DNA from: Chthoniobacter flavus
GTDB taxonomy: Bacteria > Verrucomicrobiota > Verrucomicrobiia > Chthoniobacterales > Terrimicrobiaceae
Direction: 5' to 3'
Length of the DNA: 52,847 nucleotides
Assembly (NCBI GenBank): GCA_945883435.1
Contig: CAMCXK010000011.1
Span: 1-52,847, forward strand
Shown here piece by piece: positions 327 to 52,214 of this stretch. The first letter of the stretch is position 1, and each line of letters opens with the position of its first letter. Under the pieces are notes generated by a model. That model worked only from the letters and a program-made list of their open reading frames with translations. It did no database searches and was not told where the DNA came from. The translations under genes and the position numbers were made by a program.

Positions 327-3284
327 ATGTTCAGTTGGATCCTCAAAAAAATCGTCGGCTCGAAAAACCAGCGCGAGTTGCGCCGCATGTTGCCGGTCGT
401 CAAACATATCAACGAGCTGGAAACCGGCTTCCAATCACTCTCCGACGACGCCCTGCGCGCCAAGACGCTTGCTTGGAAGGATCGGTTCGCTGGCATCTCC
501 GGATCCGCCGAGCGCGCCGCGGCGTTGGATGAAGTTCTTCCCGAGGCGTTCGCGGTGGTTAAAAATGCCGCCCGCCGCCTTTGCGGGCGCACATTTGAAG
601 TTTGCGGCCAGTCGCTGGCCTGGAACATGGTGCATTTCGACGTCCAGCTCATCGGCGGCATGGTTCTGCACAAAGGCCGCATCGCCGAAATGGCCACCGG
701 CGAGGGCAAGACCTTGGTAGCCACCCTTCCCGTCTACCTCAACGCGCTCGCCGGCCAAGGCGTCCATGTGGTGACGGTCAACGACTACCTCGCCCGGCGC
801 GATGCCGAGTGGATGGGCCAGCTGTATTCGTTTCTTGGGCTCTCGGTGGGCGTTCTTCAAAACGACCAGCACCCGTCCGTGCGCCGCCAGCAATACCATT
901 GCGACATCACCTACGGCACGAACAGCGAGTTCGGATTCGACTACCTGCGCGACAATGGCATGGCCACCAGCCGTGAGCAACAGGTGCAACGGGGACATCC
1001 GTTCGCCATTGTCGACGAGGTGGATTCCATCCTCATCGACGAAGCCCGGACGCCGTTGATTATTTCCGGCCCGGCGACCGTTTCAACCCATCAATACGAC
1101 CGTTTCAAGCCCCTCATCGACCAGCTCGTCCGCAAGCAGACTCTCCTGTGCACGCGTCTCGCCGGCGAAGTCAAGGATCTCGTGGATCAAGGCAAACCCG
1201 CCGAGGCCGGCCGCACACTTTTCAAGATCAAGCTCGGCCAACCCCGCAGCAAGGCTCTTCTCCGCCACCTTGAGGATCCCGAAATGCGCAAGCTCATGGA
1301 CAAGGCGGAACTCGAATTCTACAAGGATACCGAGGGAAAGGCGGCCCTTGTTGCCCTCAAGGAGGAACTTTATTTCACCATCGAAGAGCGTTCGCACGAC
1401 GCCGATCTCACGGAACTCGGCCGCACCTTCTTGAACCCCGATGATCCGAATGCGTTTGTGCTTCCCGATCTGCTGACGGAATTCGCCGATATCGAGAACG
1501 ACACCTCGATCACCCCCACGCAAAAAGTGCAGAAAAAGGCCGAGCGGCAGCGTCACTGCGATGCCCAAGCCGAGCGCATTCACAATATCACACAGCTCCT
1601 CAAAGCTTATTGTCTCTACGAGAAAGATGTGGAGTATGTCGTTGAAGAAAACAAGGTTATCATCGTTGATACATTCACCGGACGCAAAATGCCAGGGCGC
1701 CGCTGGAGCGATGGGCTACACCAAGCCGTGGAAGCCAAGGAGGGCGTTCAAATCGACCGGGAAACCCAAACGCTCGCCACCATCACTATTCAGAATTATT
1801 TCCGTCTTTACGACAAACTGGGCGGTATGACAGGCACGGCCGAGACCGAGGTGAGCGAGTTCCACGATATTTACAAACTCGACGTCAACGTCATCCCCAC
1901 GAATCGCACCGTCCGGCGCGTGGATGAGAACGACCGCATTTACAAAACCCGTCGCGAAAAATACAACGCCGCCATCGAAGCCATCAAGGAGGCCCACGGC
2001 CGCGGCCAGCCGATTCTCGTCGGCACCGCCAGCGTCGAAGCCTCCGAGCTCCTCAGCCGGATGCTCAAGCTGCAGAAAATCCCCCATACCGTTCTCAACG
2101 CCAAGTATCACATGCAAGAGGCGGAAATCGTCGCGCGCGCCGGCCTTCCCGGTGCCGTCACCATATCCACCAACATGGCGGGCCGTGGCACCGACATCAA
2201 ACTGGGCGAAGGTGTTTCCGACCTCGGAGGGCTTTTTGTGCTTGGCACCGAGCGCCACGAATCCCGCCGGATCGACCGCCAGCTTCGCGGACGCTGCGCC
2301 CGCCAGGGAGATCCCGGCCGTTCGAGGTTTTATGTCAGCTTCGAAGACGATCTCATGCGCAACTTCGGAGCCAGCGACCGCATGACCAAGATCATGGAAA
2401 CCTTTGGTCTCAAGGAGGGCGAGGAACTGGAGCACCCTTGGCTCAACCGCAGCGTGGAAACCGCCCAAAAACGCGTTGAACAGCGCAACTATCTCATGCG
2501 CAAACGCACCTTGGAGTTCGATGATGTCATGAACCAGCAACGCGAAGTCATCTACGGCTATCGCAACGAGGTCATGGACTCCGACTCCCCGCGCGATCTC
2601 ATTCTTGAGGTGATCCGGGAAACCGTTCCCAAAAAAACCGCCACCTTCCTGGACGATGCCGAGGGGGCCGAGTCCGACCCCGATGGCCTTTTGCAGTGGA
2701 TCAATACCAGCTTTCCATTGGGACTCACCCGCGAGAAGGCCGCTTTCGATTCCCGGTCTGTTGAGGAAAACAGCCGATTTCTCGTCGAAACCATCCAGTC
2801 CGCCTACGAACGCAAGGCGGCACTGGAAAATCCCGAGGCACTTGCCGGACTCGAGCGCTACATCATTCTCAACGCCATCGACCGGCTCTGGCAGGAACAC
2901 CTCTATGCCATGGACGGCCTTCGTGAAGCCGTTTACCTCCGCGCCTTCGGCCAAAAGGACCCCCTTGTGGAATACAAAAACGACGCCTACGCCATGTTTG
3001 TCGACCTCATGGATTCCATCAAGGCCGAGGTCCTCAACAATCTCTTCCGCAGCACCACCAATCTCCAGGCCTTCGAGCAACTCCTTGCCGGCATGGGCCA
3101 GATGCTCAGCCATCCCGAAGAGGCCCTCAACCCCGGTTCTGGCGCCGCCACAGCCGAGGAGCCTGCCGTCAAACCGCGTCTTGAGCTCCCTCTCCGGCGC
3201 GAACCACCCAAGGCCGGCCGCAATGATCCCTGCCCTTGCGGATCCGGCAAAAAATACAAATCCTGCTGCGGCCGCCTGGCCTGA
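327..3284 (+). CDS. secA: Preprotein translocase ATPase SecA
   Basis: SecA is the ATP-driven motor that pushes unfolded preproteins through SecYEG. Visible motifs are Walker A (ATGEGKT, residues 123-129), the [13 protein letters not shown] motif near 230-242, [35 protein letters not shown], the [13 protein letters not shown] motif, and a C-terminal SEC-C zinc motif ([14 protein letters not shown]). At 985 aa it is longer than the roughly 900 aa of E. coli SecA. The extra length sits in the region after ISGP (about residues 250-430), a charged helical insertion of the kind known in PVC/Bacteroidetes SecA proteins. The ATG start gives the expected SecA N-terminus. The gene stands alone and is followed by a parS site 22 bp after the stop codon. 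Confidence 0.97.
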
Positions 3285-3305: not shown

Positions 3306-3321
3306 TGTTCCACGTGGAACA
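3306..3321. promoter_or_regulatory. parS: parS centromere site 1 (ParB-binding palindrome)
   Basis: The 16 bases TGTTCCACGTGGAACA form a perfect palindrome matching the bacterial parS pattern (tGTTtCACGTGaAACa and its GTTCCACGTGGAAC variant). It lies just downstream of the secA stop codon. ParB loads at such sites to form the partition complex, and they normally cluster near oriC. A second perfect copy lies 1.1 kb away. No parB is in the window. Confidence 0.85.
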
Positions 3322-3329
3322 ACCGGTTC

Positions 3330-3800
3330 AACCGCGACCTGTGTCAGTGCTTGTCTTGCCTGGCCTGGATGGATGGCATCTGGAACAATGCGCCATTGAG
3401 CCAGGATCAACCACCCGGCCAATCGATCCAACAAAGGACGTCGGGATTCCGCCACGGATGGCTTGTGTGATCACGGATTTGATGTCGAGCCATAGATCCG
3501 GTTCATTGCCGTTGTCGCCAAGGCAACCCATACTCGCCAACAAAGCCTGATTCACGAAAAGCGTGATCGCTGGGGCGGGAAACAGCATCTGCATGCTCAG
3601 GCCAGAAAACCTCTCGCTCGTCCACTACCCAATACGCCAAACGACAGATTCCAGGCGCTTCCAACGAGGTCGTCCATTCATCCCCATTTGATCCGTAGTC
3701 GGGAATAGGTCCAAAGCGACTCCAAGCGGGATTTTCAACCGCGGCATGTTGGAAAAACCTTTCGCCCGCGCGCAAAACCGCTTCAACGGCGATGCTGCGT
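3330..3800 (-). pseudogene. Possible gene debris in the 3285-3890 gap
   Basis: This 606-bp gap between secA and trmL has no convincing intact gene. On the minus strand one frame after a stop at about 3810 reads protein-like text (AVEAVLRAGERFFQHAAVEN, then DYGSNGDEWTTSLEAPGI and RLAYWVVDE). It then loses sense, and another frame upstream of 3594 continues plausibly (NQALLASMGCLGDNGNEPDL, WLDIKSVITQ). There is no ATG with an RBS. This looks like a frameshifted remnant, perhaps of a prepilin-type or Verru_Chthon cassette protein, but the family guess is weak and chance openness in GC-rich DNA cannot be excluded. Confidence 0.25.
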
Positions 3801-3890
3801 TGGCGCGCCGCAATGGCTGTTTAAAACGGTCGACTCCCTCTTGGGCTGCCATGCCCTTGCTTTGGCGCGGAAAGGGCGTTTACGGGGCGT

Positions 3891-4382
3891 TTAGGAGGCC
3901 GTTTTTTCGCGATCACCCGAAAATTCTGAAGGTTTCCATCCGGTTTGTCGCAGGGCCTCATAAAGACCGATGCCGGCCGAGCAGGCGAGGTTCAGACTCC
4001 GGGTCCGGCGCTCCATTGGAATGCGAAGGTTGGCATCCGGATGCACCCGCAGGAGTGATTCCGGCAAACCCCTTGACTCCCGGCCGAAGACGAGAAAGTC
4101 CCCGTCCGAGAATTGCGCCTCCCAGAGACTGCGCGTGGCCTTGGTGGTGAACAGATGCAAGCGGGCCGTCGGGTGTCTTGCCAGGAAGGTGTTCCAGTCC
4201 TTCCATTGACAAATATCACACTCATGCCAGTAGTCCATGCCGGCCCGCCGGAGGGACTGTTCGTCCAGGCGAAAGCCCAGCGGCTCCACCAAGTGCAGGC
4301 GGGTGGAAGTGGCATGGCAAAGCCGGGCGATATTGCCGGTGTTCGGAGGAATTTCGGGTTCGACAAGCACGAGGTTCAGCAT
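3891..4382 (-). CDS. trmL: tRNA (cytidine(34)-2'-O)-methyltransferase, TrmL/SpoU family
   Basis: The 163-aa protein is a compact SPOUT methyltransferase of TrmL length. TrmL methylates the ribose of the wobble base of tRNA-Leu isoacceptors using SAM. Motifs: an N-terminal LVEPEIPPNTGNIARLCHAT (substrate motif 1 with the conserved N-T-G-N-I-x-R), FLVFGRESRGLPESLL (motif 2, FGxExxGLP) and IPMERRTRSLNLACSAGIGL (motif 3, the SLNL knot). The ATG at 4382 was chosen because it starts directly at the family N-terminus. The frame is open further upstream, but that would run through parS site 2 and adds 53 unmatched residues. Confidence 0.88.
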   Translation of the reverse strand: MLNLVLVEPEIPPNTGNIARLCHATSTRLHLVEPLGFRLDEQSLRRAGMDYWHECDICQWKDWNTFLARHPTARLHLFTTKATRSLWEAQFSDGDFLVFGRESRGLPESLLRVHPDANLRIPMERRTRSLNLACSAGIGLYEALRQTGWKPSEFSGDREKTAS

Positions 4383-4433
4383 GGTCTGAGCATGGCGGGC
4401 GCATGGTCGGGAATTCAACTCCCGAAAATCAAT

Positions 4434-4449
4434 TGTTCCACGTGGAACA
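4434..4449. promoter_or_regulatory. parS: parS centromere site 2 (ParB-binding palindrome)
   Basis: This is a second exact copy of TGTTCCACGTGGAACA. Here the dyad extends one base on each side to an 18-bp perfect palindrome (4433-4450). It lies 51 bp upstream of the trmL start and 13 bp beyond the stop codon of the minus-strand gene 4463-5125, so it is intergenic. The two copies are 1.13 kb apart, which fits a parS cluster near an origin. Confidence 0.87.
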
Positions 4450-4462
4450 AGATTCAACCGGC

Positions 4463-5125
4463 TCAGTGCTGGAAAGCCCGCACCAACCGCTCTTGGGGAC
4501 CCTGTGGCGACTCGCCGTCCGGTATGAGCGGCCATATCCACTCCGCGCAGGGTTCGGGAAGTGCGCTGGAGTCAAACAGGGGATCCCAAGCCTCGCCGGG
4601 ATGGCTGCGGGCGGCCACGTCGGTGATCAACAAACTGTGGCGGGCGCTGGAGAGGAGCTTCCAATGGAGCGCCGCAGTGCCGGGGCCCGGCCCGGAGCGC
4701 GGGTCGAGTGCGAGCTGGGAAAGCAGCCCGGCGGAAACACAGAAATCGGCAGCGGCGATCACGGATTGCAAACGGGATGAGACTTCAAAAACATCGGCGG
4801 TTTCAAGGACCAAACGCCCGCGGGAACAGGCGGCGGCGATTTGAATTTCGACGGGGTGCACCAGATCGACCAGGACAGAACGAAATCCGGATGGCGGAGC
4901 GGGAACATCATTGAGATGACCACTGCCGAGAACAACCATCAGGCCCCCGGCCAACCTGTTTTGACATTTCTGAACCTGCGAGCGGGACCGGGCGAGGTGA
5001 TCCGCCCAGGCCGCGCGGCAACGGTGGTGGCGATGGCGGATCGCGATCTGGCGGGCCAGGGATCCATCCCACCGGGCTGTCCAAGGGCAAGGAGTGACCA
5101 GCCACTCGAGTGCTTCGAGAAGCAT
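4463..5125 (-). CDS. Conserved hypothetical, Rossmann/SAM-methyltransferase-like
   Basis: The product is 220 aa. The N-terminal part is rich in Trp, Arg and His (ARQIAIRHRHHRCRAAWADH). A glycine-rich turn follows (VVLGSGHLNDVP, residues about 84-95), then a strand ending in acid (RSVLVDLVHPVEI) and a further strand/acid pair (RLVLETADVFEV). This order (GxGxxxD, then VLVDxVH) resembles motif I and motif II of class I SAM-dependent methyltransferases, but no catalytic NPPY or similar motif is visible. The start ATG abuts the TAA of the upstream ArsR gene with no spacer, so the two are probably translationally coupled. Substrate unknown. Confidence 0.7.
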   Translation of the reverse strand: MLLEALEWLVTPCPWTARWDGSLARQIAIRHRHHRCRAAWADHLARSRSQVQKCQNRLAGGLMVVLGSGHLNDVPAPPSGFRSVLVDLVHPVEIQIAAACSRGRLVLETADVFEVSSRLQSVIAAADFCVSAGLLSQLALDPRSGPGPGTAALHWKLLSSARHSLLITDVAARSHPGEAWDPLFDSSALPEPCAEWIWPLIPDGESPQGPQERLVRAFQH

Positions 5126-48990: not shown

Positions 48991-49884
48991 ATGGACAGCA
49001 CCTCGGACTCCCGTTTGCATCAAAAACTCCGCGACGAAATTCTCGATTCGCTCGACGAGGAGCTGGAATTGGAGGCTGAAGATCGCGAAAGCGCGGCGGG
49101 CGACGGTTCACCGGCTTTCCGGAAAGTCTACTTTTCGGAGTTGCTCCGCCTGCAGGGGGAACTGGTCAAGTTGCAGGATTGGGTTGTTCAGCGCGGCCGC
49201 AAGCTGGTGGTGCTGTTCGAGGGCCGCGATGCCGCCGGAAAGGGGGGGGTGATCAAACGCATCACCCAGCGCTTGAATCCACGGGTGTGCCGGGTGGCTG
49301 CCCTGCCGGCCCCGAACAACCGTGAGCGCACCCAATGGTATTTTCAGCGCTATGTGGCGCACCTGCCGGCGGCCGGCGAAATCGTGCTTTTCGACCGGAG
49401 TTGGTATAACCGCGCGGGTGTCGAGCGGGTGATGGGGTTTTGCAACGACGACGAATACCAGCAGTTTTTCCACGATGTGCCGGAGTTTGAACGCATGCTC
49501 GTGCGCTCCGGCATCCAATTGGTGAAGTATTGGTTTTCGATCACCGACGCGGAGCAGGAATTCCGGTTTCGTGCGCGGATTCAAGACCCTCTCAAGCAAT
49601 GGAAATTGAGCCCGATGGATCTGGAATCCCGCACCCGCTGGGAGGATTACACCAAGGCCAAGGAGATCATGCTTGACCGCACCAGCATTCCCGAAGCACC
49701 CTGGTGGGTTGTTCACGCGGTGGACAAAAAAAAGGCCCGCCTCAACTGCATCCACCACCTTCTCGGTCTTGTTCCCTACGAGCCGACGCCGCACACCCCG
49801 GTTTCGCTCCCGCAACGCATCCACCATCCGGACTACCATCGCCACGTTGTGCCGCCCGAAATGTTCGTGCCCGGGGTTTATTGA
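48991..49884 (+). CDS. ppk2: Polyphosphate kinase 2 (PPK2)
   Basis: The 297-aa P-loop kinase transfers phosphate between polyphosphate and nucleotides. Walker A is LVVLFEGRDAAGKGGVIKRI (GRDAAGKGG at 78-86). Walker B follows in IVLFDRSWYNRAGVERVMGF (DRSWYNR), with the lid region PNNRERTQWYFQRYV and YWFSITDAEQEFRFRARIQD, PLKQWKLSPMDLES. The first 45 residues form an acidic helix (LDEELELEAEDRES), often present in class I PPK2. Direction (polyP to GTP/ATP or reverse) cannot be read from sequence. The CHAD gene follows within 100 bp, forming a polyphosphate cluster. Confidence 0.95.
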   Translation: MDSTSDSRLHQKLRDEILDSLDEELELEAEDRESAAGDGSPAFRKVYFSELLRLQGELVKLQDWVVQRGRKLVVLFEGRDAAGKGGVIKRITQRLNPRVCRVAALPAPNNRERTQWYFQRYVAHLPAAGEIVLFDRSWYNRAGVERVMGFCNDDEYQQFFHDVPEFERMLVRSGIQLVKYWFSITDAEQEFRFRARIQDPLKQWKLSPMDLESRTRWEDYTKAKEIMLDRTSIPEAPWWVVHAVDKKKARLNCIHHLLGLVPYEPTPHTPVSLPQRIHHPDYHRHVVPPEMFVPGVY

Positions 49885-49983
49885 CTCTTGCGCCGCCGCG
49901 GCACCGCGTGTTCATTCTCCGCGACCTTGATCCGCCACCATCCATTTCACCCCGTTTTTCCGAAGAGCGGCGCTGATGCGGCG

Positions 49984-51468
49984 ATGCCGGTTTCCCTTGT
50001 GGCCGCAGGCGGTTGGACGGTGCCGTCGTCGTCCCCCGGTTGGAATGTCCGCTGCGTTGCCTCAAGAAAGTCTACGTTGTCACTGCGCGACACCCACACG
50101 TGGGCCCTTTTTTTCGGCGGTTCGGCATTGGGCTTTGAAAACGGGGAGTGGATCGGGGAAACAGCCGGCAGTTTGATTCGCGATGCAGCCACGCCCGCTG
50201 CAGCCCGCTGCGCGTCCGATTTCGGAGAGGGCCGGATGCGCGCGTTTCTCGCGGAAGCGATCGGGGTGCGCGCCTTGAGGGAGACCGCCCGGGCTGGACT
50301 CCAACGCGAGTTGCATGAGATTCTGGATGGCTCGGACAAGGTTGTTTTACGCCTGGAGGTCACCCGCCTGACCGCTCCGGAAGGGCCGGTTTACATCACT
50401 CTCCATCCGTTGCTTGGCTATGGAGCTGATGCCGCGCGAATGCTCCAAATCCTGGGCACATCGGGATGCGGGCCCGCCCCGGAGACGCTCATTGGAGGCG
50501 TTTATCGACTGCTCGGGGTGCAGCCGCTCGCCTACTCGGCCAAGCCGCCCCTGACATTTGCGCCCGGGAGTGAAGCCGCTGCCGCAGTGGTTGAAATCCT
50601 GCAAGGCCTGCTGGAAGTGGCCCGCTGGAACGAGTTCGGCATCGCCGGGGATGTGGACACCGAGTTTTTGCACGACTTCCGGGTGGCGTTGCGAAAAATG
50701 AGGTCGGTTCTGAGCCTCACCAAAGGCGTTTTCTCCGGCGACGCGACCACACGCTGGAAGAAGCAGCTTGGCGATGTGTGCCGCAAAACCAATGCCCTGC
50801 GCGATCTGGATGTGCAGATTCTCGGACGCGAGGATCTCTGTGCGATGCTTCCGGAGGAGCTCCGTCCCGGACTGGACCGGTTTTTCGAGGAGTCGGGAAA
50901 CGCCCGCGCCGTCCAAGCCCGCAAGGTGGCCGCCTATTTGAAATCGAAGTCCTATACCGCGCTGGTCGAAACGCTGCCGGGGGAATGGGAAAATCCCGTT
51001 TATCGCGGACCCGCGGCGGCACACCCCGTCGGCTTGATGGCTTCTGCGCGGCTTCAAAAGCGGTTTCAACGCATCCGAAAACTCCAGAAATCGATCACCC
51101 CTGAAACCACCGATTCCGCCATCCACGCCCTTCGCATCGAGTGCAAAAAAATGCGCTACTTGCTCGACAGTTTTGGCCGCCTGTTTCCCGCCGATTGCGC
51201 CCTGCCGATTGCAAAAAGCCTGGCACGCGTTCAAAACCGCCTCGGACGCTACAACGACACCTCTGTCCAGCAGGACCACTTCCTGGAACGGGCCCACGGC
51301 TGTCTGGAAACCGGTGATTGCCGGATGGCCCTTGCCCTCGGGGGGCTGATCGGAAGCCTCCACCACGAGCATACCGCCCTTCGCAAAAAGGTGGTCGAGG
51401 CGCTGGCAGCTTTTTGCAACCGGGAACACCGTGCCCTGGTCAAAAGCCTGATTCCCCTCGATCAATGA
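49984..51468 (+). CDS. CHAD-domain polyphosphate-binding protein with degenerate CYTH-like N-terminus
   Basis: The 494-aa protein has a C-terminal CHAD domain (conserved-histidine alpha-helical domain), which binds polyphosphate through basic helices. It reads FLHDFRVALRKMRSVLSLTK (first His/Arg helix), DVCRKTNALRDLDVQILGRE, and the second repeat IHALRIECKKMRYLLDSFGR, then LARVQNRLGRYNDT. The N-terminal ~190 residues have the order of a worn CYTH domain (SLRDTHTWALFFGGSALGFE, LQRELHEILDGSDKVVLRLE) but lack the ExExK motif and most of the basic tunnel residues. Start uncertain: ATG at 49984 used, TTG at 49888 possible. Its stop overlaps the ParA start (ATGA). Confidence 0.88.
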   Translation: MPVSLVAAGGWTVPSSSPGWNVRCVASRKSTLSLRDTHTWALFFGGSALGFENGEWIGETAGSLIRDAATPAAARCASDFGEGRMRAFLAEAIGVRALRETARAGLQRELHEILDGSDKVVLRLEVTRLTAPEGPVYITLHPLLGYGADAARMLQILGTSGCGPAPETLIGGVYRLLGVQPLAYSAKPPLTFAPGSEAAAAVVEILQGLLEVARWNEFGIAGDVDTEFLHDFRVALRKMRSVLSLTKGVFSGDATTRWKKQLGDVCRKTNALRDLDVQILGREDLCAMLPEELRPGLDRFFEESGNARAVQARKVAAYLKSKSYTALVETLPGEWENPVYRGPAAAHPVGLMASARLQKRFQRIRKLQKSITPETTDSAIHALRIECKKMRYLLDSFGRLFPADCALPIAKSLARVQNRLGRYNDTSVQQDHFLERAHGCLETGDCRMALALGGLIGSLHHEHTALRKKVVEALAAFCNREHRALVKSLIPLDQ

Positions 51469-52214
51469 AAATCCTCTCTTGCTACAGTATCAAAGGCGGT
51501 GTCGGTAAAACCGCGCTTGCCGTGAATCTCGCCTATCAACTGGGCACTCGCGGGTTCCGCACCCTTCTGGTCGACCTCGATCCCCAGGGCGCGGCGGGGT
51601 TTTACTTGCGGGTCGCTCCCGCCCGGGATTTTCCCATTGAAGAGTTGAAAAGCCTCACTGGCACTTGGGTGCGCGCAAACCTCCGCGAATCCGATTTTCC
51701 GGGCCTTCACATCCTGCCGTCCAGCCTTGCCTACCGCCACCTCGACAACCGCTTGTCCGGCATGAAAAAATCCCGCAAGCAGCTCCAGTGGATGCTGGAG
51801 GAGATTGAAGACGGCTACGACGTGGCGGTGCTGGATTGCCCGCCCAACATCACACTCCTCTCGGAAAACATCTTTCGCGCCTCCCGGGCCGTTCTTGTGC
51901 CTGTCATCCCGACACCGCTCTCGTCTCGGACGTTCGACCAACTTTGCGGATTTTTCGGCGATGAGGATCTCGATACCACAAAAATCCAACCGTTTTTCTC
52001 TATGGTTCAATCGCGCAAAGGGCTTCACCGCTCCGAAATGGAGTCTCTCCGGTCCAGCCATCCGTCCTTTTACCGCGCTTGCATTCCATTCTCGGTTGAT
52101 GTCGAGGCCATGGGGGCCCGTCGCGCGCCGCTGACTTCATACAGCCGAGGCACGGCCGCCCGCGCTTTTGTGGAACTCTCCACCGAGATCATCGATCGCA
52201 ATCCTCTCCGATGA
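51465..52214 (+). CDS. Orphan ParA/MinD-type ATPase
   Basis: The 249-aa protein has the deviant Walker A of ParA proteins (CYSIKGGVGKTALAVNLAYQ, both lysines present), the switch strand RTLLVDLDPQGAAGFYL, Walker B DVAVLDCPPNITLLSENIFR and a VPVIPTPLSSRTF segment. No N-terminal DNA-binding helix-turn-helix is present and no parB lies next to it, so it is a cargo-positioning type ParA rather than a plasmid partition protein. It sits between a CHAD gene and a CYTH-like/NUDIX gene, overlapping each by ATGA. This strongly suggests co-translation and a joint task in polyphosphate biology. Confidence 0.93.
   Translation: MKILSCYSIKGGVGKTALAVNLAYQLGTRGFRTLLVDLDPQGAAGFYLRVAPARDFPIEELKSLTGTWVRANLRESDFPGLHILPSSLAYRHLDNRLSGMKKSRKQLQWMLEEIEDGYDVAVLDCPPNITLLSENIFRASRAVLVPVIPTPLSSRTFDQLCGFFGDEDLDTTKIQPFFSMVQSRKGLHRSEMESLRSSHPSFYRACIPFSVDVEAMGARRAPLTSYSRGTAARAFVELSTEIIDRNPLR

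Follow-up and report, generated by a model that had tools for sequence, protein, structure and literature searches.

A predicted chromosomal parS doublet beside secA and a trmL-like gene, and its apparent change of position within one family of Verrucomicrobiota

The chromosomal ParABS systems of Bacillus, Caulobacter and Pseudomonas combine clustered copies of a 16-bp palindrome having a CACGTG core (parS) with a chromosomal ParB and a Soj-like ParA. As a general rule, parS lies in the ori domain, and GTTCCAC is a half-parS (PMC7022226). In P. aeruginosa, nine of the ten parS sites most likely fall within protein-coding genes (PMC4368675). The Caulobacter sites are placed in essential or costly genes, and a permissive zone around the existing cluster tolerates new or moved parS clusters (PMC5815017). 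We analysed a DNA stretch of 52,847 nucleotides (the window) carrying two identical palindromes, which very probably form a chromosomal parS doublet and the genome's whole visible set of predicted ParB-loading sites. The palindrome with its CACGTG core, the clustering of the copies, and the chromosomal ParB and Soj-like ParA are like those of the systems above. Unlike in those systems, only two sites are present here, ∼1.1 kb apart, and parA, parB and parS are unlinked; moreover, most of the order has one site fixed in mnmG, a site that the window's family has lost. The features around the doublet are the following (window coordinates, strand, description).

327..3284, + strand: secA, protein translocase subunit
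3306..3321, no strand: predicted parS site 1, a perfect 16-bp palindrome, 21 bp past the secA stop codon
3322..3890, no strand: 569-bp stretch from site 1 to trmL, holding only short overlapping ORFs without a convincing gene
3891..4382, − strand: trmL-like SpoU-family tRNA methyltransferase gene (PF00588, E 1.5e-31), between the two predicted parS sites
4434..4449, no strand: predicted parS site 2, a palindrome identical to site 1, 51 bp upstream of the trmL start codon

The initial annotation had reported one 16-mer twice, in intergenic positions beside secA and trmL, and had considered this repeat to be no chance event. Both copies of TGTTCCACGTGGAACA are indeed exact matches, 1128 bp apart, and both are perfect when judged against what we take to be the parS consensus. 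No other match with up to three mismatches was observed in the window, and 0.19 such matches are expected from the shuffled window. Two or more of these loose matches arose in 1 of 100 shuffles, and the two in the window are exact. We also performed the whole-genome scan that the annotation had proposed (2.84 Mb in 126 contigs, 97.6% complete). It yielded two perfect copies, both in the window, and none of the reversed-pattern control; far from being spread evenly, the genome's only perfect copies sit together. With up to three mismatches allowed, there were 11 sites for TGTTCCACGTGGAACA and 14 for the reversed control, therefore no additional degenerate parS copies stand out in the genome. 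Compared as an inverted repeat, the copies have 17 bp in common; compared as a direct repeat, they agree at 20 of 21 bp.

The gene between the sites, to which we presumptively give the name TrmL, reads back towards secA. A longer, GTG-started frame of this gene would cover site 2; as the SpoU domain begins at the ATG at 4382, we regarded site 2 as intergenic despite this frame. In most of the relatives trmL is oriented towards secA, and in L088 it is oriented away; in L109 and L153, it is co-directional with secA and parS is not present. Inversion of trmL between the two palindromes is possible in some of the relatives. Site 2 is located 13 bp beyond the end of an ORF (4463-5125) encoding a 220-aa protein with no Pfam match, distant relatives of which are found near secA in L084 and L123.

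The genome has one ParB gene (C16:32288-32566), which is of the chromosomal type, having ParB_N, HTH_ParB and ParB_C (C-terminal dimerisation) domains; the absence of a ParB, which would have spoken against the annotation, was thus not observed. By our reading of the sequence, it lies between a desaturase-like and a ligase-like gene. The genome's strongest ParA match is Soj-like (C3:387-920; 183.7 bits), and one ParA of similar score is present in each of G003, G010, G017 and G027, all of which bear ParB. In the 0.9-Mb genome G031, we found neither ParB nor a ParA resembling the Soj-like one. The more usual arrangement is a parAB operon close to oriC; here the ParB gene, the Soj-like ParA gene and the doublet are mutually unlinked, which we counted against the parS assignment. 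A KGGxGKT motif is absent from all 30 ParB loci of ∼3.3 kb (own genome, L003, and 29 relatives, L034-L062), and ParB stands in these loci without a close ParA gene.

The window itself carries a ParA-like gene at 51.3-52.2 kb, which the annotation (placing it at 51465) had thought probably not to be the chromosomal ParA. This view is borne out by the far stronger Soj-like match on C3 (the window gene scores 107.8 bits), and by the presence of such a match in all four ParB-bearing relatives searched. The ParA-like gene adjoins CHAD and PPK2 genes, within a row of PPK2, CHAD-domain and ParA-like genes (all by Pfam) at 48991-52214, and its product may position polyphosphate granules rather than DNA. 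A ParA match scoring similarly to this gene also occurs in G017.

By analogy with the studied species, ParB clamps would load at each of the two sites with CTP and would spread by sliding, both across the ∼1.1 kb that separates the sites and for a few kb outside it. The loaded ParB would recruit SMC, and ParA would move the ParB complexes, such that the parS region of each sister chromosome would be segregated first.

By its SecA, the organism belongs to Chthoniobacterales and probably to Terrimicrobiaceae: the closest SecA proteins from named genomes come from draft genomes labelled 'Spartobacteria', Chthoniobacterales and Verrucomicrobia (80 of 366 loci kept; best 86%). We then compared the doublet among 58 genomes drawn by kinship, own genome included. 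The perfect 14-mer core GTTCCACGTGGAAC was found in 40 of them, at 1-3 per genome, and the reversed control in none. Several genomes lacking the perfect core have site pairs with one changed base; in a search covering chosen genomes of this set, such pairs were seen, among the matches listed, in at least G003, G015, G017, G020, G023, G026, G034, G036 and G039. The median spacing of the doublet is 797 bp in the window's family (n = 17 genomes) and, for the nearest pair, 833 bp in the other families (n = 20 genomes), with G044 (3.2 and 5.1 kb) as an exception. A single relative without ParB, G031, was searched; in place of a doublet it has one degenerate, one-mismatch site at the mnmG position (C1:124670-124683), which may be a relic. 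In G003, G015, G017, G020, G026 and G036, the two copies of the doublet often share one and the same off-palindrome base, oriented either directly or inversely, and the copies in G027, G038 and G046 mix off-palindrome types.

Most of the order has the site in mnmG. This gene (PF01134, E at most 1e-60) was found in 54 of the 58 genomes, and a parS-like core (up to one mismatch from GTTNCACGTGNAAC) lies 722-755 bp into its GIDA domain in 26 of the 27 usable genomes from other families. Most of the 26, which include G031, have the core at exactly 728 bp; the exception among the 27, G050, has an upstream site only. The 27 are the 32 genomes outside the family minus G052 and G055 (mnmG not found) and G040, G049 and G057 (without usable match lists). 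The site in frame encodes FHVEQ. Across most of the order, a second parS usually lies near the mnmG start. Within the window's family, the listed parS sites all fall outside mnmG by coordinates, and the corresponding place, as read in two genes, encodes LDVRQ in G017 (seven mismatches to parS) and FHARQ in G010 (five).

Across the phylum, a strict pattern of the mnmG site, which undercounts, matched 15 of 288 genomes. Two of the 8 genomes from the order matched, as did 13 of the 86 from the class's other orders, but none of the 194 from other classes. The matches in other orders of the class indicate that the mnmG site is older than the order, or that it arose more than once in the class. A search of open-licence papers turned up neither a report of parS within mnmG nor one of parS in Verrucomicrobiota. 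In a codon test on 23 distinct mnmG genes, 3 of 149 invariant-residue columns had a single codon, all of them in the site; this test was dropped as evidence because most of these genes had been retrieved with the parS pattern. In its place we used the count of 26 in 27 genomes, drawn by kinship.

In the other families of the order, the neighbours of the mnmG-parS include pdhA, pdhB, pdhC, msrA and cdd (the names pdhA and cdd have Pfam support; pdhB, pdhC and msrA are our reading of the sequence). Three genera of the window's family still have parS beside some of these pdh-msrA-cdd genes, with mnmG gone: the order is parS, msrA, pdhABC in G017; cdd, msrA, parS, folE2 in G018; and msrA, cdd, parS in G022 and G019. 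In the window's genus, parS directly follows secA in 8 of the 16 genomes (G000, G003, G004, G005, G008, G010, G014 and G015), a single site being shown in G004, G008 and G014. Seven of the 16 have parS on another contig than secA, in some because contigs end there, and in the remaining genome, G001, parS was not seen; in G006, parS flanks trmL on a contig different from that of secA. The eight genomes of the genus in which parS was not seen next to secA count against the parS assignment, as does the mixed GC skew described below. One contig of G010 carries msrA-cdd (105 kb), parB (331 kb), mnmG (466 kb) and parS (908 kb), placing about 800 kb of this draft between the old pdh-msrA-cdd neighbourhood and the present parS. 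On these sequence comparisons, the secA/trmL position of the doublet is derived, and the mnmG position is the usual one in the order. The move to secA/trmL would reflect either copying of parS into its present location or rearrangement of the chromosome around it. The permissive zone of Caulobacter offers a plausible route for such a shift; the Caulobacter shifts were engineered, whereas the present one is inferred from natural relatives and its ∼800 kb from one draft genome.

A palindrome pair flanking a gene, with one copy 51 bp upstream of its start codon, would also fit a looping repressor, and the sites could accordingly be operators of a non-ParB regulator controlling trmL and secA. We consider this very improbable. 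In relatives, the same pair lies within or close to mnmG, or is found by folE2 or by a gene for a solute-binding protein, and one of the sites is intragenic in most of the order; the gene context varies, whereas the palindrome sequence stays. The window's ParA-like gene raises a different possibility, namely that a plasmid or mobile element has integrated here and that the doublet is its partition site, served by this ParA. However, the doublet occurs throughout the order, roughly once in each genome, the sole ParB_N gene of the genome is on a different contig, and the ParA-like gene adjoins PPK2 and CHAD genes, which leaves this origin scarcely credible.

Noc, the nucleoid-occlusion protein, is paralogous to ParB and recognises a related palindrome, and its binding sites could be mistaken for parS. 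However, the CACGTG core is of the parS type, from which the Noc site differs; Noc binds at sites scattered around the chromosome, whereas the two copies are together here, and the genome has a single ParB-family gene. We therefore hold Noc sites to be extremely unlikely as well. The assignment as chromosomal parS, in contrast, is well supported because the palindrome is perfect, the doublet is unique in the genome, a ParB is encoded, and the doublet is conserved across the order; on this homology, the annotation's proposal of parS marking a ParB loading zone appears sound.

The annotation had further proposed that the parS doublet gives the window a position near oriC, and this part stood less firmly. 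We measured GC skew in four relatives (G017, G032, G010 and G027), using 10-kb windows that were sampled, not complete, and whose neighbours are not independent. A minus-to-plus switch at parS is clear in the first 1.02 Mb of G017, where the skew is negative in 7 of 7 windows before parS and positive in 15 of 19 after it. G010 (p 0.038; p 0.24 in an evenly spaced test) and G032 (p 0.040) show such a switch weakly, and there is none in G027 (p 0.28). In none of the four is parS the best split of the skew (rank 6 of 20 in G017, 5 of 36 in G032, 4 of 53 in G010 and 7 of 36 in G027). As these tests are mixed, GC skew was rejected as strong support for the origin. dnaA is no guide to the origin in this group: G032 has it on the parS contig, at a distance of 490 kb. 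Matches to the DnaA box TTATNCACA with one mismatch number 20 in the whole window against 11.2 expected, and none lies between 673 and 6824; with no cluster near the sites, oriC was not seen at the doublet itself. From the general rule on parS (PMC7022226) and the modest skew support in relatives, the doublet is likely to be origin-proximal.

Taken over the class, the data led us to a tentative scenario, to which we give somewhat less than even credence. In the class, an old centromere site in mnmG would dictate FHVEQ. In the window's family, it would have been freed from mnmG and, in three genera, left in the pdh-msrA-cdd neighbourhood. In the window's genus, it would have moved on (∼800 kb in G010) to flank trmL by secA, remaining nearly always a ∼0.8-kb doublet that tracks the origin better than dnaA, parB or mnmG.

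The doublet is very probably a genuine chromosomal parS pair, ordinary in kind; its added interest is in the change of address within one family and in the mnmG site of the order's other families. It is customary to regard parS as a fixed landmark of the origin. This lineage provides a natural series, with the site in mnmG, the site left behind by mnmG, and the site at a new place, and the series lets one ask how a bacterial centromere changes its address. In these genomes dnaA need not mark the origin, and when draft genomes of the order are annotated, the doublet can serve to mark the likely origin region.
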